DNA of 64,000 nucleotides from Vibrio ishigakensis (GTDB lineage Bacteria; Pseudomonadota; Gammaproteobacteria; Enterobacterales; Vibrionaceae). Of this stretch, positions 32,688-43,144 are shown piece by piece. Where the stretch lies: assembly GCF_024347675.1 (NCBI RefSeq), contig NZ_AP024882.1, positions 372,001 to 436,000 of the forward strand, given 5' to 3'. Under the pieces are notes generated by a model. The model did no database searches, was not told the origin of the DNA, and saw nothing but the letters and a program-made list of their open reading frames with translations. The position numbers were made by a program, and so were the translations under genes. Each line of letters opens with the position of its first letter. Position 1 is the first letter of the stretch.

Positions 32688-33671
32688 TTATTTCACTTCA
32701 TATCTCAGTAGAACTTCATTATCTAAAACAACATTGGTAGACCAGATAAAGTTTGCTCCTGCGCCGCTGAATTTCTCAATAAAATCCATATAAGACTTCT
32801 TATTGTCTACACCAATCTCATCTTCTGAATATTGGGTTGCTTGAGGCCATGAGTTGGAGTCGAAACTTTGCTTCATCCAATCGCTTGGGGTTTCCCAGTG
32901 AGCAGCGTACGCATTTTCTCCATTGTCTGTACCTTCAGTGGTGCAGGTTTCAGACAAACGTTTACCATCCACTTCACTCAGGCAGCTTAGGTCGTAGATA
33001 GGGGCTGTGTAGAATGTTTGTGCTTGCCAATCGGAGTTGGTTACGGTTCCATCGCTAAAGCTCGCGATAAACCCGCCATCACCAGGGTGAAATGCCTTTC
33101 CTCGATTATCTTCGGTACCCAGGCCTAGGTTTTCTTCCCAGTCAATGACCTTGACCGCAATGGTATAAGGCTTGTTAACCTTGAATTTTACGATACTAGA
33201 ATTGAAGGGAGTGAAGGGAACTGTGTCTACCGCAACCAGTTGACCATTAATGTACAGCTCAAAGTAGTTATCAGCAAAGATATAGCCAGTGATCTCTTCT
33301 CCGTCAGCATCTACAACGGCTAAAGGGACTGAGTCTTCATCAACATCTGCAATACTTTGAGGGGTGATGTTGGAGCACTCTTCATACAAGTCCTTCGCTT
33401 TCGGCGCAGTAGTAAAGTGGTTATCAGCAGGAACCGTCCATACCTTGCCGTCAGAGCTAGTAATCTCGCCAACACCAGCAACACGACTTCTTCCATTCTC
33501 ACACTGAAAAAGGTTTTCCTCGATTGTCTTAGCACGCCCTTGAGTGATGCTAGCTGAACCCTTGTAATCACTAATGCCAGTGCTAGCAACCGAGTCAGAT
33601 GAAGGAGAGCACCCCGCTAAAAATAAGGTTACAGATGAAAGAGCGATAACTTGGCTGTTTTTGATAACCAT
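32688..33671 (-). CDS. Predicted lipoprotein with beta-sandwich character, function unknown
   Basis: This 327-residue exported protein has a lipobox LAGC at residues 18-21 followed by a Ser-rich linker. The mature part is acidic and beta-rich, with a segment NYFELYINGQLVAVDTVPFTPFNSSIVKFKV that looks like a galactose-binding-type jelly roll, two Cys pairs, and many Trp/Asp. I do not recognise the family. Neither catalytic motifs nor membrane segments were seen. It stands alone between convergent and divergent regulators. A role in carbohydrate binding at the cell surface is a guess from the fold impression only. Confidence 0.75.
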   Translation of the reverse strand: MVIKNSQVIALSSVTLFLAGCSPSSDSVASTGISDYKGSASITQGRAKTIEENLFQCENGRSRVAGVGEITSSDGKVWTVPADNHFTTAPKAKDLYEECSNITPQSIADVDEDSVPLAVVDADGEEITGYIFADNYFELYINGQLVAVDTVPFTPFNSSIVKFKVNKPYTIAVKVIDWEENLGLGTEDNRGKAFHPGDGGFIASFSDGTVTNSDWQAQTFYTAPIYDLSCLSEVDGKRLSETCTTEGTDNGENAYAAHWETPSDWMKQSFDSNSWPQATQYSEDEIGVDNKKSYMDFIEKFSGAGANFIWSTNVVLDNEVLLRYEVK

Positions 33672-33910
33672 TGGCGGAGATCCTGTTTGGGTAAGAAGTT
33701 TAAGCGTAGTTTTAACCAGAGAGAGGTCAATTCGACTCTCTAAATAAGGTGCGTATTCTGCCCATTAGACTGTAAACGAACGTAAACAGCACGCAATGTT
33801 GGGTAAACTTATGCTCTCATCTTGAGCAATTTTAGGAACAGATTCAAAACTACGACTCTCTGCTAGTTTCTGATTGCTATTCCTACCTCATTCGCTAATA
33901 ATCGAGGCAA

Positions 33911-33923
33911 TGTTACCGTAACA
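33911..33923. promoter_or_regulatory. GntR-type operator upstream of gntR
   Basis: TGTTACCGTAACA is a perfect odd palindrome 12 bases before the gntR start codon. It matches the half-sites of the two operators before ascF (TGTTAC/GTAAC), suggesting autoregulation by GntR. Confidence 0.7.
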
Positions 33924-33935
33924 CTTAGACGTACT

Positions 33936-34931
33936 GTGAAGAATAAAAGGACATCTCTGCAAGACATTGCCGACCAAGTTGGCGTAACCAAGATGACGGT
34001 GAGTCGCTACCTAAGGGACCCAGAAAAGGTATCGCAAAAGACTCGTGACAAGATTGAAAAGGTCATCACAGAAACCGGCTATATCCCCAATAAAGCCCCT
34101 GCTCTGCTCTCGAACTCCAAGAGTTTCGCTATCGGTGTTCTGGTTCCTTCACTCACCAACCAGGTATTCGCAGATGTTATTAGTGGTATCGAAGAGGTCA
34201 CTGAACCCGCCGGCTATCAGGTGATGTTGGCCCACTACGGCTACTCTCCTGAAGTAGAAGAAAAGCACATCACCTCGCTGCTTTCATATCAAATCGACGG
34301 TCTGATCCTATCCGACTTCGAACACACCGAAAGAACGCTCGCCATGATTGAGATGGCAGGTATTCCAACTATTGAAATCATGGGCTCGAGTAAGACTCCT
34401 ATCCATCAATCTGTCGGCTTTGATAACAAAAAAGCGGGCTATTTGATGACTAAGGCACTTCTAGAAAAGGGGTATAAGCATCCTGTTTATCTTGGTGCTC
34501 AGCTCGATAGACGAACCGAGCTAAAGCGCGAAGGCTATCGAGACGCCGTTGAAGAGTTTGGTGTTATGCCAATTGAGATGCTGACCGAAGAAGGCTCCTC
34601 TTTCTCTCTAGGACGTGAATTACTGACCAAGACGCTAGAGCAACATCCACAAGCCGACAGCTTCTTCTGCACCAATGACGATATCGCAACTGGGGTTGTG
34701 TTTGAGTGCCAGCATCAAGGGATCTCAATACCTGAGCAAATCGCAGTAGCCGGATTCCATGGTCTGGATGTAGGTCAATCACTAGTGCCAAGGCTTGCCA
34801 GTGTGGTTACCCCTCGTAAAGAGATAGGCGAAATCGCAGCAAAACAGCTACTACAAAGAATCGAAAGTAAATCGAAGAAAACCGACAACATCTGCCTAGA
34901 TGTAGAGTTAGATTTTGGAGAAAGCGTCTAG
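33936..34931 (+). CDS. gntR: LacI-family gluconate repressor GntR
   Basis: This 331-residue repressor has a LacI-type helix-turn-helix at residues 7-28 (LQDIADQVGVTKMTVSRYLRDP) and a periplasmic-binding-protein-like effector domain. It matches E. coli GntR closely as I remember it (LGVLVPSLTNQVFADV, MLAHYGYSPEVEE, FCTNDDIATGVVFECQ, GFHGLDVGQ), so gluconate or 6-phosphogluconate is the expected inducer. It starts with GTG 33936. An operator-like palindrome lies just upstream, and two more lie before ascF 2 kb away, with elbB in between on the other strand. It probably controls the ascF-ascB-gntK-edd operon. Confidence 0.9.
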   Translation: MKNKRTSLQDIADQVGVTKMTVSRYLRDPEKVSQKTRDKIEKVITETGYIPNKAPALLSNSKSFAIGVLVPSLTNQVFADVISGIEEVTEPAGYQVMLAHYGYSPEVEEKHITSLLSYQIDGLILSDFEHTERTLAMIEMAGIPTIEIMGSSKTPIHQSVGFDNKKAGYLMTKALLEKGYKHPVYLGAQLDRRTELKREGYRDAVEEFGVMPIEMLTEEGSSFSLGRELLTKTLEQHPQADSFFCTNDDIATGVVFECQHQGISIPEQIAVAGFHGLDVGQSLVPRLASVVTPRKEIGEIAAKQLLQRIESKSKKTDNICLDVELDFGESV

Positions 34932-34939
34932 CGTTAACA

Positions 34940-34976
34940 GGGTCTATAACGGCTTATAGACCCATCTCAATTTTAA
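34940..34976. terminator. Terminator between gntR and elbB
   Basis: GGGTCTATAA (34940-34949) and TTATAGACCC (34954-34963) form a 10-bp stem with loop CGGC between the two convergent genes; TTTT occurs at 34971-34974 on the plus strand. Confidence 0.8.
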
Positions 34977-35623
34977 AGCTTTTTAGACAAAACACTCAGC
35001 GCGCCACTAATACCGGTTTCTAGTTCAACCAGATTGCTTGCCAGCATATAAGCTGGAGTGGTGATCACCTTATTCTCTTCATCCACATGATGCTCAACTG
35101 CAGAGCAAGCAATATGCTTAACGCCTGTCGGCTCAAGTGCCTGGATGGTATCGGCATCACTGCCAATGGTCAGAGATACGTTTGGTAGGGATTTGGCCAC
35201 CAACACAGGAGCGATACACATCGCCAATACCCATTTTCCTTGTCCATGGAAATCGTTGATTGCTTGGCTGATCTCAGGAAGCACACCGTACTCAGCGCCT
35301 TTCACTGCAAAATCAGAGAGGTTCTTGGCGGCACCGAAGCCACCCACAAACACCAAGGCATCGAAGTCACTTTGGTTGAGCTTAGCAAGTGACTGGGTAT
35401 TGCCGCGGCTAACTCTGTTGGATTCTGCCAATACATTACGTTGCTCAGATTCAAACACCTCACCAGTTTGGTGATTTACGACATGAAGTTGAGTGATATC
35501 CGGAGCAAATGTTTGGTACTCAATGCCGAGCTTTTCTAATGAGAGCATAGTAATCACACTTTCGTGAAGCTCCGAGCCATCAAATACACCCGAACCTGAC
35601 AGTACAACTGCGACCTTAGCCAT
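34973..35623 (-). CDS. elbB: DJ-1/PfpI-superfamily glyoxalase ElbB
   Basis: The 216-residue cytoplasmic protein is a class I glutamine-amidotransferase-like member of the DJ-1 superfamily. It matches ElbB in length and signatures (VAVVLSGSGVFDGSELHE at the N-terminus, FVGGFGAAKNLSDFAVKG in the middle, and the nucleophile Cys in LAMCIAPVL). E. coli ElbB has weak glyoxalase activity and a historical link to isoprenoid synthesis. It lies between gntR and its likely target operon on the opposite strand, with no evident link to either. Confidence 0.92.
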   Translation of the reverse strand: MAKVAVVLSGSGVFDGSELHESVITMLSLEKLGIEYQTFAPDITQLHVVNHQTGEVFESEQRNVLAESNRVSRGNTQSLAKLNQSDFDALVFVGGFGAAKNLSDFAVKGAEYGVLPEISQAINDFHGQGKWVLAMCIAPVLVAKSLPNVSLTIGSDADTIQALEPTGVKHIACSAVEHHVDEENKVITTPAYMLASNLVELETGISGALSVLSKKL

Positions 35624-35938
35624 AATGCGTTTCCTTATCTTGTTGTTGGTTTATTCCAATATATGCCTGCTGATAAGAAACATAAATTTTCGATGTGACA
35701 ATCTGACTGCTGAATAGAGAGTAAACCTCACAATTGTGATCCACTTAAACCTGCGCTACTCATCTCCATTTGCTTTCATTTTTTTAGATATATATGCATC
35801 ACTCTAACTAAGCTTGAAAACTCGATAAAATACATATCCTGTAACAGTACGCATCCCCTTAAAGCCTTTGTATAGCCTCGTTTTAACGATCCAGATCTCA
35901 ATTTTTAGATGAATCTCAAAATCCGCTTTATTTTACAA

Positions 35939-35968
35939 ATGTTACTGGTAACTTGTTACCCGTAACTT
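35939..35968. promoter_or_regulatory. Two tandem GntR-type operators upstream of ascF
   Basis: ATGTTACTGGTAACTT (35939-35954) and TTGTTACCCGTAACTT (35953-35968) are two nearly adjacent palindromes with TGTTAC/GTAAC half-sites, spaced 14 bases centre to centre. They resemble the known E. coli GntR site and the palindrome before gntR itself. About 200 bases separate them from the ascF start. Confidence 0.75.
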
Positions 35969-36165
35969 AGAGCATAACAATCCAACTCTAAGAAAAACTA
36001 TCGCGAGGTCTCCCCCGAGTCTGGCGAATACAAACAGAAGAAGAATGTCGCCACATGAGTGGCGGTGCGTGAACTCAAAAGTCGGCTATCTGGCTGTGAT
36101 AGACCGCAAAATGACTTGGCTACAAACGACTTAGCCAACCTCTGCACACTTAGGAGTGATAAAAA
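35969..36165 (+). promoter_or_regulatory. Structured leader of the ascF operon
   Basis: The 197-base leader contains GCCAC-ATGA-GTGGC (36050-36063 region) and TGGCT...AGCCA (about 36117-36137) hairpins. A 29-codon frame from ATG 36045 to TAG 36132-36134 is open but has only a weak purine-rich ribosome site, so it is noted, not called as a gene. Confidence 0.4.
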
Positions 36166-37656
36166 ATGTCCAACAATTTCAGCGCCCTAGCCAATTCGGT
36201 AGTGGAGAAGATGGGTGGAGCGAGCAATGTGATTGCCCTTACCCACTGTATGACCCGCCTGCGTTTTGTTACCAAAGACGAAGCGGGGATCGATGCCGAT
36301 GCGCTTAAGAAGATCAAGGGTGTTATGGGCGTTGTGCAAAACGGTGACAAGTGCCAGGTTATCGTGGGTAACAATGTGGCTGCGGCATACAAAGAGGTGA
36401 TGAAACTGCTTAACCTTGATGGTAGTGCAGCAGATGACGCTCCAGCTCCTAAAGTGAAACTGACTCCTAAGGTTATCGGCGCCAAGATGCTTGATGCACT
36501 TGTGGGCACCATGTCACCGCTTATCCCTGCCATCATCGGTGGCTCTATGGTTAAGCTTGCGGCCATGCTTCTGCTGATGTTCAACGTTTACGAAGCTGAC
36601 CACTCGACCATCATCCTACTGAACACCATAGGTGACGGTGCCTTCTTCTTCCTACCTATCATGGTAGCGGCATCGGCAGCGATTAAATTCAAAACCAATA
36701 TGTCATTGGCCATCGGTATTGCCGGCGTCTTGGTTCACCCTAACTTTATTGACCTGATGGCTCAGGCGGCCGAAGGTAAGCATGTTGACCTATTTGGTAT
36801 CCCAGTAGAGTCTGTGCGCTACACCTACACCGTTATTCCTGTGCTTATCATGACTTGGATTCAGTCATACATTGAGCGCTGGGTAGATAGCATTACTCCT
36901 ACCGTGACTAAGAACTTCCTTAAGCCAATGCTTATCGTTCTAATCGCAGCGCCAATCGGCATCCTTCTGGTAGGCCCTATGGGTATCTGGATTGGTACGG
37001 CTATCTCTACTCTGGTTTACACCATCCACGGCACTCTAGGCTGGCTAGCAGTAGCTATCATGGGCGCACTATGGCCACTACTTGTACTGACTGGTATGCA
37101 CCGTGTGTTTACACCAACCATCATCCAAACCATCGCTGAAACTGGTACCGAAGGCATGGTAATGCCATCTGAAATCGGTGCAAACATAGGTATGGGTGGC
37201 GCATGTCTAGCGGTAGCTTGGAAGACTCGTAACATCGCTCTTAAACAAACCTCTATGGCAGCAGGTGCATCAGCCCTAATGGCGGGTATCTCAGAGCCAG
37301 CACTATACGGCGTATTGGTTCGCTTGAAGCGACCACTCATCGCGACCCTAATCACAGGCTTTATCGTAGGTGGCCTAGCAGGCTATGCGGGCATCGCCAG
37401 CCACTCAATGGCCGCACCTAGCCTATTCACCAGCGTGCAGTTTATCGACGTAAACGACCCAATGAGCTTGGTGTGGGTACTTGGCCTAATGGCACTGTCG
37501 GTAGTTCTTTCGTTCGTCCTAACCCTAATGCTTGGCTTTGACGATATCCCTAACGAGGAAGAAGACGACATGAACAAGTCTCACAAGAAAGAAGCGGATA
37601 AAAAAGAAGAACCAAAGCTTACTGAAGCTCCAGTAGCTGCCAAAGCCACCGCTTAA
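36166..37656 (+). CDS. ascF: PTS EIIBC for aryl/alkyl-beta-glucosides, AscF
   Basis: This 496-residue inner-membrane permease imports and phosphorylates a beta-glucoside at C6 of the glucose unit. The EIIB domain (residues 1-80) has the phospho-Cys28 in ALTHCMTRLRF, and the EIIC domain (about 105-465) includes GTMSPLIPAIIGGSMVKL and GMHRVFTPTIIQTIAETG. Like E. coli AscF, it lacks an EIIA domain and must use one from elsewhere. The C-terminus has a charged tail ending in Ala/Lys repeats. It is the first gene of an operon with ascB, gntK and edd, behind two GntR-type operators rather than an AscG site. AGGAG lies 9 bases before the ATG. Confidence 0.92.
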   Translation: MSNNFSALANSVVEKMGGASNVIALTHCMTRLRFVTKDEAGIDADALKKIKGVMGVVQNGDKCQVIVGNNVAAAYKEVMKLLNLDGSAADDAPAPKVKLTPKVIGAKMLDALVGTMSPLIPAIIGGSMVKLAAMLLLMFNVYEADHSTIILLNTIGDGAFFFLPIMVAASAAIKFKTNMSLAIGIAGVLVHPNFIDLMAQAAEGKHVDLFGIPVESVRYTYTVIPVLIMTWIQSYIERWVDSITPTVTKNFLKPMLIVLIAAPIGILLVGPMGIWIGTAISTLVYTIHGTLGWLAVAIMGALWPLLVLTGMHRVFTPTIIQTIAETGTEGMVMPSEIGANIGMGGACLAVAWKTRNIALKQTSMAAGASALMAGISEPALYGVLVRLKRPLIATLITGFIVGGLAGYAGIASHSMAAPSLFTSVQFIDVNDPMSLVWVLGLMALSVVLSFVLTLMLGFDDIPNEEEDDMNKSHKKEADKKEEPKLTEAPVAAKATA

Positions 37657-37669
37657 ACATCAAATTATT

Positions 37670-37694
37670 TAGCCACCTCAGCTTGGGGTGGCTA
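37670..37694 (+). other. Intercistronic hairpin between ascF and ascB
   Basis: TAGCCACC (37670-37677) pairs with GGTGGCTA (37687-37694). The following A-rich sequence makes a terminator unlikely; a role in message stability or differential expression is more plausible. Confidence 0.65.
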
Positions 37695-37705
37695 CAAAAA
37701 ATTAA

Positions 37706-39145
<1,440 letters not shown>

Positions 39146-39157
39146 TACCGACTATAA

Positions 39158-39175
39158 GTGCGGCAGAAGCCGCAC
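39158..39175 (+). other. Intercistronic hairpin between ascB and gntK
   Basis: GTGCGGC (39158-39164) and GCCGCAC (39169-39175) form a 7-bp GC-rich stem with loop AGAA and no T-run. Confidence 0.65.
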
Positions 39176-39204
39176 AATTATTATAAAAATCTCATGAGGG
39201 GTTT

Positions 39205-39726
39205 ATGAATAACAACACCGCAGTTTTTATCATTATGGGTGTTTCAAGCACCGGTAAATCGACTGTTGGCGAGATGTTCGCACAGGAGATCCGCGCTAAG
39301 TTTATCGATGGCGACGATCTGCATCCTAAAGCGAACGTTCTAAAAATGTCTCAGGGTGAAGCGCTAAACGATCAAGACCGCAATCCTTGGCTAGAAAGAA
39401 TCCGTGATGCTGCATTTAGCATGGAGATGAAGAACGAGCGTGGCGTGATTGTCTGTTCAGCGCTCAAGAAATGCTACCGCGATAAAATCCGTGAAGGGAA
39501 CCAAAACGTTATCTTCCTGCACCTTCACGCCGACAAAGCAATCATCGCAGAGCGTATGCAAAATCGTGAAGGGCACTTTATGCCACTGTCACTGCTTGAT
39601 GATCAGTACGCGACCATGGAAATGCCGACTGATTTAGAGACTAAAACCCATCAGGTGGATGTGTCTAACGACCTCTACGAAGTGGTTTCTGAATGTGTCA
39701 CCTTAGCGAAGCAATATCTGGATTGA
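39205..39726 (+). CDS. gntK: Gluconokinase GntK
   Basis: The 173-residue cytoplasmic kinase phosphorylates D-gluconate to 6-phosphogluconate. The P-loop is GVSSTGKST at residues 12-20, followed by FIDGDDLHPKANVLKMSQGEALNDQDRNPWL, the gluconokinase signature, and REGHFMPLSLLDDQ near the lid. Length matches GntK/IdnK. GAGGGG precedes the ATG. It is the third gene of the operon and ends 4 bases before edd. Its presence is the key sign that gluconate is an intermediate of the pathway. Confidence 0.95.
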   Translation: MNNNTAVFIIMGVSSTGKSTVGEMFAQEIRAKFIDGDDLHPKANVLKMSQGEALNDQDRNPWLERIRDAAFSMEMKNERGVIVCSALKKCYRDKIREGNQNVIFLHLHADKAIIAERMQNREGHFMPLSLLDDQYATMEMPTDLETKTHQVDVSNDLYEVVSECVTLAKQYLD

Positions 39727-39730
39727 AAGA

Positions 39731-41518
39731 ATGAACAACACAGTTATTCAAGTTACCCTCGACATCATTGAAAGAAGCAAACAGCGTCGTGAAGACTATG
39801 TTCAGCGCATGCAAAAACAAGCACAGCACGGACCAAACAGAGGTTCTCTTTCATGCAGTAACATGGCACACACTGTGTCGATCTGTGGTGACCAGCAGCG
39901 CGATAAAGTACTTGATTTCACTAAGATTAATCTGGGTATCGTAACGGCATACAACGATATGTTAAGCGCCCACCAGCCTTATGAAACCTATCCTGAACTC
40001 ATCAAAGAGGTGATGTCTAAGATGGGTCACAGCGCTATGGTTGCGGGTGCCACGCCTGCAATGTGCGACGGTGTTACTCAAGGGCAAGAGGGCATGGATA
40101 TCTCCATGTACTCACGCGACCTTATCGCCCAGTCCACGGCGGTTGCTCTAAGCCACAATACCTTCGATTGTACGGCGCTTTTGAGCATCTGCGACAAAAT
40201 TGCACCAGGCCAGTTGATGGGTGCTCTCTCTTTTGGTCACCTGCCTACTTCATTTATTCCAGCCGGCCCAATGTCCTCTGGCATTTCTAATGCTGAAAAG
40301 GTCAAAGCAAGACAACAACACGTTGCGGGCGAAATTAATGATAGAGAGCTTCTAGAGAAAGAGTGTGGAGCGTACCACTCACCAGGTACTTGTACCTTCT
40401 TTGGCACAGCCAATACCAACCAATTGGTGTTTGAAGCCATGGGTCTAATGCTACCAGGCTCAGCCTTCGTGCCAGTTGGTAGCGAACTCAGACACGCACT
40501 GAATATCGCCTCTATCAAGAACATGGTTGCCATCTCTGGTGGTCAAGGGCGTCCGCTGTACAAAGTGGTAGACGAAAAATCTATCGTTAATTCACTGGTG
40601 GCTCTTATTGCGTCAGGCGGCAGTACCAATCACACCATTCATATGATAGCGGTAGCCAGAGCGGCGGGTTTGATAGTGACTTGGGATGATCTCGATGCCC
40701 TATCAAGCGTCGTACCACTACTGGCACGTGTTTATCCAAACGGCCCCGCTGATATCAACTATTTTGAGCGCGCGGGCGGTGTTCCAGCACTACTGAAAAA
40801 CCTTTCTGAGCGTGGCTTGATCCATATGGATGCGACGCCGGTGTACGGCACCATGCAGGATTATCTGAAGACGCCAAATCTGGAGAACGGCAAACTGGTT
40901 TACTTGCCAATCCACGATAGCCAAGACTCGGATGTGATTGCTCCGCTAGGTAAAAGCTTCAGCGAACAAGGTGGCCTTAAGGTACTGGCCGGTAACCTAG
41001 GCCGTGGGGTGATGAAGATCAGCGCGGTTGCTGAAGAGAATCATGTAATCCAAGCACCTGCATTGGTGTTTCATAGCCAACATGATGTGAAGCGTGCCTA
41101 TGAGGCGGGAGAGCTGGATAGAGACGCAATCGTAGTGGTGAGACATAATGGCCCTGCGGCCAACGGTATGCCTGAGCTTCACATGCTGATGCCAGTTCTT
41201 GGCAATGTAATGAAAAAAGGCTTCAAGACAGCGCTTTTGACCGATGGTCGTCTTTCAGGGGCATCAGGTAAGGTACCTGCACTTATTCATATGACACCTG
41301 AAGCGCAGCACGGTGGACCTCTATCTAAGGTAGAGAATGGCGACATCATCACCATCAATGGTCAAACCGGTGAAGTAAACGTCGAGCAAGACATCCAGCA
41401 TAGGGAACAGACTGAGTTTGATCTCGCTTCCCAACACTTCGGTTCTGGTAGAGAGTTGTTCAGCATCTTTAGGCACAATATCTCCAGCGCAGAAGCAGGA
41501 GCCACCATCCTAGAGTAA
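39731..41518 (+). CDS. edd: 6-Phosphogluconate dehydratase Edd
   Basis: This 595-residue IlvD/Edd-family [4Fe-4S] dehydratase converts 6-phosphogluconate to 2-keto-3-deoxy-6-phosphogluconate in the Entner-Doudoroff pathway. Cluster-binding cysteines occur in GATPAMCDGVTQG and HNTFDCTALLSICD, with SPGTCTFFGTANTNQ and the C-terminal LLTDGRLSGASGKVPA segment in place. The full length and order match Edd rather than IlvD. It starts 4 bases after gntK. The KDPG aldolase gene eda, which usually accompanies edd, is absent from this operon and must lie elsewhere. A terminator follows. Confidence 0.95.
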   Translation: MNNTVIQVTLDIIERSKQRREDYVQRMQKQAQHGPNRGSLSCSNMAHTVSICGDQQRDKVLDFTKINLGIVTAYNDMLSAHQPYETYPELIKEVMSKMGHSAMVAGATPAMCDGVTQGQEGMDISMYSRDLIAQSTAVALSHNTFDCTALLSICDKIAPGQLMGALSFGHLPTSFIPAGPMSSGISNAEKVKARQQHVAGEINDRELLEKECGAYHSPGTCTFFGTANTNQLVFEAMGLMLPGSAFVPVGSELRHALNIASIKNMVAISGGQGRPLYKVVDEKSIVNSLVALIASGGSTNHTIHMIAVARAAGLIVTWDDLDALSSVVPLLARVYPNGPADINYFERAGGVPALLKNLSERGLIHMDATPVYGTMQDYLKTPNLENGKLVYLPIHDSQDSDVIAPLGKSFSEQGGLKVLAGNLGRGVMKISAVAEENHVIQAPALVFHSQHDVKRAYEAGELDRDAIVVVRHNGPAANGMPELHMLMPVLGNVMKKGFKTALLTDGRLSGASGKVPALIHMTPEAQHGGPLSKVENGDIITINGQTGEVNVEQDIQHREQTEFDLASQHFGSGRELFSIFRHNISSAEAGATILE

Positions 41519-41547
41519 CAAAACGCACTTCACTCGAAATAATACGG

Positions 41548-41586
41548 CGGCGTATAGGGTCTTTATGTTCCATATACGCCGTTTTT
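41548..41586 (+). terminator. Rho-independent terminator of the ascF-edd operon
   Basis: CGGCGTAT (41548-41555) and ATACGCCG (41574-41581) form an 8-bp stem with an 18-base loop, followed by five T. Confidence 0.85.
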
Positions 41587-41619
41587 GCGTATGAGAGATA
41601 AGTTGCCAAGGAGGTAGTT

Positions 41620-41790
41620 ATGAAGTGGATGTTAATAGCTCTAGCAATGGCATTCTCAGGCTCTGTTTTTGCAGGATACGGCACAGGTGGTGTCCCGTCG
41701 GTACCCTGCTACATAGACGGAAAATACGAAGGCACCATCCCTATTAACGAGTGCCATCGCATTGGCGGTAAGGTGCCCGGAGAGAAATGA
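41620..41790 (+). CDS. 56-residue secreted two-cysteine protein
   Basis: A 57-codon frame starts at ATG 41620 behind a consensus AAGGAGG site (41608-41614) and ends at TGA 41788. The product has a textbook signal peptide of 18 residues (MKWMLIALAMAFSGSVFA) and a 38-residue mature part, Gly/Pro-rich with two cysteines (PCYIDG and ECHRIGG) that could form one disulfide. I do not recognise a family by name. It ends one base before the stop of the convergent MATE gene. The ribosome site and signal peptide together make a real gene likely. Confidence 0.75.
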   Translation: MKWMLIALAMAFSGSVFAGYGTGGVPSVPCYIDGKYEGTIPINECHRIGGKVPGEK

Positions 41791-41791
41791 C

Positions 41792-43144
41792 CTAGCCTGC
41801 CTTCACCAAATTCAGCGGTTCATCTAGCACCCTGCTTTTATACCCACGAAGCATTACCAAGCTGATAACCGCTGTCACCGTTTCTGCAAACAATATACTC
41901 CCCCAAATGCCATTTTCTGGAAAGAAGTATGGCAACACTAGTATGCCCAATGCCACAAACACGAATCCTCGACTTAGCGATATCATGGTCGCCTGTCTAG
42001 GGCTAGCCACCGCTTGAAACAGGTTGGCAATAACCATATTCAGCCCCATCAAAGGCACACCAAAGAAGTAGAAAGTAAGGGCTGTTGCAGCCAAGCCCGT
42101 CAACTGAGAATTATCACCCAAATAAAGGTTCGCTATCTGAGGAGCTATCAACCAAACAAGGCTCATAAAAACCAAGCCACAACCAATCGCTGACTTAAGC
42201 CCGAGCTTTAAAATACTTTGGATGCGTCTAGGCTTACCTGCCCCATGGTTAAAACTAACGATAGGCTGGCACGCTTGCGCTATTCCCACCATGACAAAGA
42301 GGGCAAATACACCAATATTAGAAGTCAAACCATACGCTATGATGTAGCTCTCACCGTAATGGTGAAGCAAGGTATAGTTGAACATGAAAATAGTCATTGC
42401 CGAGGTGATTTCGATAAAGAAGATAGGTGTGCCTATCCTCAAGATGTCACGACTGCGACCTAGGCCCATCCCCTTAAATGAAAGCTCGAGATTACCCTTT
42501 TTATACACGAAGTGGCTTAGCAAAATCAGAGCAATCACTACCTGTGAAATTACCGTCGCATAGGCGGCACCCTTCATACCCCAACCAAACTTGAGTACAA
42601 AGAAGTAATCCATAACCAGGTTGCTGATGGCGCCTACAGACATGGCAATAGTGGCAAGTTTAGGGTTGGTGTCGTTGCGCACAAAGCAAGACAGAACCCA
42701 TGCAAGGGAGTAAAGCACGAACATTTTCAGCAGTACCGAAAGGTACTCATGTGCTAAGGTTGCAATGTTCCCTGTAGCTCCAACCATGCCAATGATTTCA
42801 TCCAGCCAAAACAAGGCTAGGGTTACAGCAATGGTGGTGAGGATGGCCGTCAGTAGCATTGACTGATTAAACAGTACTTGCCCGGCTTTTTTATTACCCT
42901 TGCCTACCTCGATGGACATCATGGCAGCACCACCAATACCCACCATCATAGAAATAGCGGTAAAAATAGAAAAAGCAGGAATGGTGATAGCGATAGCACC
43001 CAAGCCATCCGCACCGACACCTTGCCCAATAAACCAAGCATCTCCCATGATATAGAGAGACTTGATCACCATGCCTGTCAGCGCTGGCCAAAGGTACTGG
43101 AAAAATGATTTAGATACGGGATCAGTTTTTAGATTAATGCTCAT
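41792..43144 (-). CDS. MATE-family efflux transporter
   Basis: This 450-residue inner-membrane protein has 12 helices in two homologous halves and MATE features (FFQYLWPALTGMVIKSLYIMGDAWFIGQGVGADGLGAIAITIP at the N-terminus, and QACQPIVSFNHGAG in the second half). The family exports cationic drugs with Na+ or H+; this branch resembles the MepA/YPNP type. It lies 76 bases downstream of an AraC-type regulator gene on the same strand, which probably controls it. The ligand is unknown. Confidence 0.9.
   Translation of the reverse strand: MSINLKTDPVSKSFFQYLWPALTGMVIKSLYIMGDAWFIGQGVGADGLGAIAITIPAFSIFTAISMMVGIGGAAMMSIEVGKGNKKAGQVLFNQSMLLTAILTTIAVTLALFWLDEIIGMVGATGNIATLAHEYLSVLLKMFVLYSLAWVLSCFVRNDTNPKLATIAMSVGAISNLVMDYFFVLKFGWGMKGAAYATVISQVVIALILLSHFVYKKGNLELSFKGMGLGRSRDILRIGTPIFFIEITSAMTIFMFNYTLLHHYGESYIIAYGLTSNIGVFALFVMVGIAQACQPIVSFNHGAGKPRRIQSILKLGLKSAIGCGLVFMSLVWLIAPQIANLYLGDNSQLTGLAATALTFYFFGVPLMGLNMVIANLFQAVASPRQATMISLSRGFVFVALGILVLPYFFPENGIWGSILFAETVTAVISLVMLRGYKSRVLDEPLNLVKAG

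Follow-up and report, generated by a model that had tools for sequence, protein, structure and literature searches.

In Vibrio ishigakensis, the genes for a β-glucoside permease of the phosphotransferase system (PTS; ascF) and a 6-phospho-β-glucosidase (ascB) are followed by those for gluconokinase (gntK) and 6-phosphogluconate dehydratase (edd), and palindromes of the GntR operator type lie upstream of ascF. We analyzed this locus within a 64,000-nt stretch of DNA (hereafter the window), which lies on the second of the two contigs that make up a genome of 4.79 Mb. The sequence evidence leads us to propose, with a probability of about 0.72, that these genes form a GntR-controlled catabolic operon for a β-glucoside with a gluconate aglycone, most likely cellobionate. 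AscF, together with a general enzyme IIA (EIIA), would import the disaccharide acid and phosphorylate its glucosyl unit, and AscB would hydrolyze the product to glucose 6-phosphate and gluconate, the same split that has been hypothesized for Escherichia coli. Judging from their families, GntK would convert gluconate to 6-phosphogluconate and Edd would turn this into 2-keto-3-deoxy-6-phosphogluconate, which an Eda encoded elsewhere would split. Intracellular gluconate would inactivate GntR, otherwise bound at the tandem sites seen upstream of ascF and at the single site upstream of gntR. The PTS–glycosidase pair would then replace a gluconate permease in this lineage. The parts of this scheme are known and their wiring is apparently undescribed: a literature search by titles and abstract openings, covering some of the matching papers, returned none tying ascFB to gluconate genes or to GntR, which agrees with the view of an initial annotation of this DNA that the operon is not a standard described unit.

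The gene order given in that annotation was borne out by the coordinates and by NCBIfam matches (Table 1). The locus reads gntR, elbB, ascF, ascB, gntK and edd, all on the plus strand except elbB. The gaps between ascF and ascB (58 bp), ascB and gntK (59 bp) and gntK and edd (4 bp) indicate that ascF-ascB-gntK-edd is likely an operon. In pairwise comparison, AscF and AscB were 70% and 77% identical to their E. coli counterparts. PF00367 and PF02378 matches cover the EIIB and EIIC parts of AscF, which carries an EIIB motif (HCMTRLR, residue 27) and no EIIA domain. AscB of the window contains the motifs TFNE and ENG, which we take to hold the catalytic glutamates, and SKRYG, presumably a phosphate-binding motif. 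TFNEIN and ENG[LFY]G were present in 62/62 AscB rows (two duplicates and one piece of a split gene included), and the exact 10-residue form of the S/K/Y motif in 44 of the 62. PDB searches with AscB and AscF matched relatives, none of which was informative on aldobionates.

Pairwise identity of the regulator to three E. coli proteins was 53% for GntR, 43% for IdnR and 28% for AscG, showing that its earlier label, GntR and not AscG, was correct; no match to AscG was found among the open reading frames (ORFs) around ascF. E. coli GntR binds palindromes of this kind and responds to gluconate. As had been noted before, one such palindrome precedes gntR and two precede ascF in tandem. The ascF pair has the form TGTTAC-N2-GTAACT, its members exactly abutting, and no other match to the two-base-spacer motif in the window had fewer than 3 mismatches. 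When as many as 3 mismatches were allowed, the window contained 23 matches and shuffled sequences 27.2, so that there was no enrichment, and genome-wide counts at 2 mismatches were nearly equal for the forward motif (180) and its reversed control (157). Because loose counts were near background, we used only tight or tandem sites upstream of relevant genes. The operator upstream of gntR implies a probable autoregulation of this gene.

We surveyed 296 Vibrionaceae genomes for AscB orthologues, defined by at least 81% identity (retrieved loci carry L numbers and genomes G numbers). An orthologue was found in 39 genomes, including G196, counted as a partial match at 86%; among the matches listed, the next GH1 proteins were at most 58% identical to AscB. 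One or more of gntK, edd, eda and gntR occurred near ascB, mostly adjacent to it, in 29 of the 39 loci. We call these loci linked, meaning that the retrieved ascB neighbourhood held at least one gluconate gene, and the other 10 unlinked; L137, whose kinase is only 38% identical, was scored as linked through gntR. The neighbourhood lacked edd in 7 linked loci (L137, L140, L142–L144, L146 and L149). At least four gene orders were present: ascF-ascB-gntK-edd in the window, gntK-edd-ascF-ascB in L136, eda-ascF-ascB divergent from gntK-edd in L114–L117, L121 and L129–L132, and ascF-ascB-eda divergent from gntK-edd in L122, L123, L125 and L126. The arrangement noticed in the window thus recurs, in several forms, among AscB-bearing Vibrionaceae. 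We also observed that ascB of genome G196 is split into two overlapping ORFs (L151:8648–9969), and that a sulfatase-like gene (domain established for L118 only) lies upstream of ascFB with GntR-type sites in three close relatives, L118–L120.

GntR-type sites, scored as two-base-spacer motifs of at least 10/12 within about 500 bp upstream of the ascFB unit, were found at 29/29 linked and at 7/10 unlinked loci, and a tandem pair, 14 bp apart, at 25/29 and 4/10, respectively. At L127 the scan halted at a site inside ascF; a separate site listing shows a pair in the ascF–gntK intergenic region. As a within-locus control, we scanned the 300 bp upstream of ORFs in the 39 ascB loci. The tandem pair preceded 26/29 gntK, 16/30 ascF and 8/13 eda genes, counts that are not independent because divergent genes share one intergenic region; it preceded none of 399 other ORFs, 27 gntR genes or 22 edd genes in the same loci. 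A single site of at least 11/12 was found upstream of 9 of the 399 other ORFs. Perfect 13-mers lay 16–46 bp upstream of gntR in L114, L117, L129–L135 and L145, and a perfect 14-mer, not a 13-mer, preceded gntR in L122, L123, L125, L126 and L136. The one-base-spacer 13-mer is thus found at the gntR promoters of the window and of the first of these groups, and the two-base-spacer 14-mer at asc and gntK promoters, two spacings for what is seemingly one regulator.

For comparison, we scanned 400 bp upstream of ascF in 20 of 35 matching loci from outside the Vibrionaceae. AscG was encoded within the locus in 18 of the 20 (non-adjacent in L184), and no two-base-spacer site of at least 10/12 was detected upstream of ascF in any of these 18 AscG-type loci, nor in E. 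coli. Also outside the family, L183 has the order ascF-ascB-gntR and carries sites that score 11/12 and 10/12, and L166 has ascB without ascF or AscG.

If gluconate arises inside the cell, a dedicated gluconate permease need not accompany gntK, and the gene content of V. ishigakensis fits this expectation. The genome contains a single gntK match and one close edd match; two further edd matches, at 30% and 38% identity, fall in one and the same 616-aa open frame, which resembles ilvD. For eda, the top match (64% identity, C2:1757317) lies downstream of ORFs that read, from their translations, as kdgF-like and kdgK-like. No GntP-family permease was found among the locus ORFs, and a Vibrio GntP query gave weak matches in the genome, the best at 26% identity. 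The Pfam GntP model matched one gene above cutoff (83.6 bits). This gene, 26% identical to a Vibrio GntP, lies between two genes whose translations suggest a glycerate kinase and a regulator resembling CdaR, so that it is likelier to encode a permease for glycerate. The presence of gluconokinase with no close gluconate permease is consistent with gluconate being made intracellularly.

The same trend was seen across the family, where we scored GntP at E ≤1e-60 (one query) and GntK at E ≤1e-30. GntP was present in 2/29 linked versus 7/10 unlinked genomes (Fisher p = 2.4e-4, relatedness ignored), so that no match at E 1e-60 or better was found in 27 of the 29 linked genomes, V. ishigakensis included. 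Among 126 GntK-positive genomes, GntP occurred in 9/37 with AscB and in 73/89 without it (Fisher p = 1.3e-9, relatedness again ignored); 16 of the 126 had GntK with neither GntP nor AscB.

A comparison of Photobacterium profundum (L029) with P. indicum (L038) revealed a natural cassette swap beside the operator. The two loci are 93.8% identical over 9.6 kb, from just upstream of the operators through gntK-edd, and their outer flanks are 91% identical over 2.5 kb. Between these conserved blocks, one locus carries a metallophosphatase-like gene, ascB, ascF and eda, and the other eda and gntP; eda-ascF-ascB of one locus thus corresponds to eda-gntP of its counterpart. At the DNA level the eda genes are 72% identical, and both operators are retained, the second slightly different. 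Elsewhere, P. profundum retains a distant GntP relative (33% identity). Together, the sites at 7 of the 10 unlinked loci, the lack of a GntP match at E ≤1e-60 in 27 linked genomes and this swap argue for the earlier suggestion that ascFB is under GntR control, with gluconate arising in the cell.

Two other explanations bear on these observations. Because ascFB stands where a gluconate locus would have its permease, AscF might transport gluconate itself, with AscB acting on other glucosides. We regard this as very improbable: a PTS would deliver phosphorylated gluconate and leave GntK needless, ascB is retained together with ascF, and AscF is still 70% identical to the E. coli protein. Alternatively, an ordinary operon for cellobiose, salicin or arbutin may have been joined fortuitously to Entner–Doudoroff genes, with gluconate as a general signal only. 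The family name of AscF (cellobiose/arbutin/salicin) points this way, and Edd could also use 6-phosphogluconate derived from glucose 6-phosphate. Such an operon is an unlikely explanation, as it accounts neither for gntK without a close gluconate permease, nor for ascFB in the place of gntP by the same operator, nor for GntR-type sites upstream of unlinked ascFB.

We then compared the histories of AscB and Edd in trees built by a quick method (59 and 68 rows, respectively). In the AscB tree, 19 AscG-type rows were separated with support 100 from 40 others (among them L166 and L183, which belong to other families), and the window grouped with L114–L117 (support 93). In the Edd tree, by contrast, the window grouped with L190 (86) and L193 (99), away from most other asc-linked Edd proteins. 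Constraining the window Edd to group with L114–L117 was rejected (p-AU 1.8e-64), and so was a tree uniting all 22 Edd rows that are asc-linked in a single clade (p-AU 4.9e-37). This conflict between the trees indicates that ascFB joined gluconate genes more than once, one ascFB lineage being combined with different gluconate lineages. Neutral linkage is conceivable among close relatives, and the genes might on that account be chance neighbours whose operators serve gntK-edd alone; repeated joining in separate gnt lineages and sites at 7/10 unlinked loci make this the least credible of the explanations that we considered.

How the proposed operon relates to known systems is best seen from its modules. 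In the plain gluconate locus of Vibrionaceae, eda-gntP is divergent from gntK-edd; this locus shares with ascFB loci the kind of operator, gntK-edd and often gntR, but has gntP where these have ascF-ascB. The E. coli GntR regulon (gntK-gntU and edd-eda) has a pair of 11/12 sites upstream of gntK, spaced 13 bp apart, and a single 11/12 site upstream of edd, of the same motif as in the window, with an additional 12/12 site inside the start of edd, and its GntR is the 53% identical protein mentioned above. There the permease gene gntU adjoins gntK, whereas in the window gntK is accompanied by a PTS permease and a phospho-glucosidase. Cellobionic acid phosphorylase would share the substrate, but acts by phosphorolysis of the free acid, whereas the window proposal invokes PTS phosphorylation followed by hydrolysis. 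E. coli ascFB encodes orthologous AscF and AscB; it differs in that its repressor, AscG, is encoded divergently, that ascF is not preceded by a GntR-type site and that the 10 kb examined contain no gluconate genes, and it has been described as cryptic with respect to cellobiose, salicin and arbutin.

The link between AscB and growth on cellobionate in E. coli, which the initial annotation had pointed to, agrees with a published study (PMC4403981). According to that study, an ascB deletion mutant fails to grow on cellobionic acid, complementation restores growth, and a Neurospora cellobionic acid phosphorylase rescues the mutant on this substrate; that AscB splits phosphorylated cellobionate into glucose 6-phosphate and gluconate is the authors' hypothesis. 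The same mechanism could serve another β-glucosyl-gluconate, such as laminaribionate or gentiobionate, or more than one such acid, a reading that overlaps with ours and leaves the linkage open. Nothing in the sequence fixes the linkage, and cellulose is only a presumed source: the one AA10 lytic polysaccharide monooxygenase gene found in the genome (C1:2208146, open frame of 533 aa) may act on another substrate, and we did not use it as evidence. Cellobionate is nevertheless the only acid of this kind for which we found a published AscB-family phenotype, in E. coli (PMC4403981), and we consider a different native aldobionate a real, though clearly less probable, possibility.

Several observations weigh against a GntR-controlled operon for a gluconate-bearing glucoside, or narrow what can be said of it. 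The regulator scored below both NCBIfam cutoffs (IdnR, 409.9 against 500; GntR PRK14987, 404.7 against 433), and having missed the GntR equivalog cutoff it is filed as GntR-like only. ascB is unlinked in 10 of the 39 loci, ascF was not found beside it in 9 (L128, L133–L135, L137, L138, L145, L148 and L151), and many of the ascB loci are near copies, whose relatedness the counts ignore. No site was detected upstream of the ascFB unit in the unlinked loci L128, L138 and L150, and 2 of the 7 site-bearing unlinked loci have ascB without ascF, as a lone gene in L148 and a split one in L151. L137 contains an apparent operon of TRAP transporter genes (DctP-DctQ-DctM), a weak gluconokinase gene, gntR and ascB, with no ascF (L137:8767–14990) and two GntR-type sites in front. 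gntP-like pieces occur in the gnt locus of L196 and L202, 2 of the 16 genomes scored as having GntK without GntP or AscB, indicating that the E 1e-60 threshold can miss fragmentary genes; the V. ishigakensis genome, moreover, may encode a gluconate carrier from a non-GntP family. The ascF gene of E. coli is without a GntR-type site, and the E. coli authors were unable to obtain an in vitro assay of AscB and did not name the transporter (PMC4403981). Beyond "β-glucoside of gluconate", the substrate is not fixed by the sequence, cellobionate being the likeliest. Comparative genomics supports the initial idea of a glucoside with a gluconate aglycone; the identity of the substrate, phosphorylation of an aldobionate by AscF and gluconate as the inducer are hypothetical.

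Table 1. Genes, operators and hairpin of the ascF-ascB-gntK-edd locus (positions in the window).
Feature	Position	Strand	Basis
GntR-type operator upstream of gntR, 13-mer TGTTACCGTAACA (TGTTAC-C-GTAACA), one spacer base	33911..33923		12/12; ends 12 bp upstream of gntR start
gntR, LacI-family regulator, GntR/IdnR subfamily	33936..34931	+	NCBIfam and pairwise identity
elbB (DJ-1/PfpI family)	34973..35623	-	NCBIfam PRK11780, 267.2 bits (cutoff 180)
GntR-type operator 1 of tandem pair upstream of ascF, TGTTACTGGTAACT	35940..35953		11/12
GntR-type operator 2 of tandem pair upstream of ascF, TGTTACCCGTAACT	35954..35967		11/12
ascF, PTS enzyme IIBC, β-glucoside family	36166..37656	+	PRK09796, 830.8 bits (cutoff 722)
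ascB, GH1 6-phospho-β-glucosidase	37715..39145	+	PRK09852, 970.4 bits (cutoff 623)
Hairpin GTGCGGC-AGAA-GCCGCAC in ascB/gntK gap, weak T tail	39158..39175	+	Pattern scan alone
gntK, gluconokinase	39205..39726	+	TIGR01313, 194.8 bits (cutoff 113.75)
edd, 6-phosphogluconate dehydratase	39731..41518	+	TIGR01196, 818 bits (cutoff 708.25)

The elbB gene between gntR and ascF, absent from the initial annotation, had no match in the other 38 retrieved ascB loci and is probably a bystander. The hairpin between ascB and gntK may tune gntK-edd expression, perhaps setting it at a lower level. Rfam gave no match within positions 33600–41800, and a promoter scan returned no plus-strand σ70 match upstream of ascF.

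In other gluconate loci, different uptake systems and enzymes take the position expected for the permease. In L133–L135 and L145, where ascF is missing, genes for a PTS EIIC of the Lac/cellobiose family and for a second GH1 protein lie beside gntR, edd, gntK and ascB (domains established for L133 only; L133:13960–16869), with a GntR-type site upstream of the EIIC gene in L133, L135 and L145, not in L134; this is perhaps a second aldobionate cassette. L133 also has two large neighbours, one PutA-like and one PutP-like, that are probably bystanders; genes of the same clusters occur in L134, L135, L137 and L145. An MFS_2 symporter and a GH43 protein with a xylosidase-type C-terminal domain occupy the place of gntP opposite gntK-edd, near GntR-type sites, in L075 (5791–8830; the same record as L206) and L200, and TRAP transporter and short-chain reductase genes occur in the gluconate loci L007, L190, L197, L198 and L201. 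These loci suggest a set of cassettes comprising gntP for free gluconate, ascF-ascB for glucosyl-gluconate, Lac/cellobiose EIIC with GH1, MFS_2 with GH43, and TRAP with a reductase. We tentatively suggest, at somewhat less than even odds, that in marine gammaproteobacteria GntR-gntK-edd serves as an exchangeable chassis that takes uptake and enzyme cassettes, each for a different gluconate-bearing or related sugar. In that case aldobionates would be a recognized nutrient class in the sea, and the AscFB family, the E. coli members included, would have glucosyl-gluconate and not cellobiose as its native substrate.

The ascFB–gluconate loci suggest that the native job of AscF and AscB is the import and splitting of glucosyl-gluconate, and the exchange of gntP for ascFB in the two related Photobacterium loci offers a ready-made comparison. 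AscF would be a candidate for the cellobionate transporter that the 2015 E. coli study left unidentified (PMC4403981). The operon would imply a dedicated bacterial pathway for oxidized disaccharides of the kind released by lytic polysaccharide monooxygenases.

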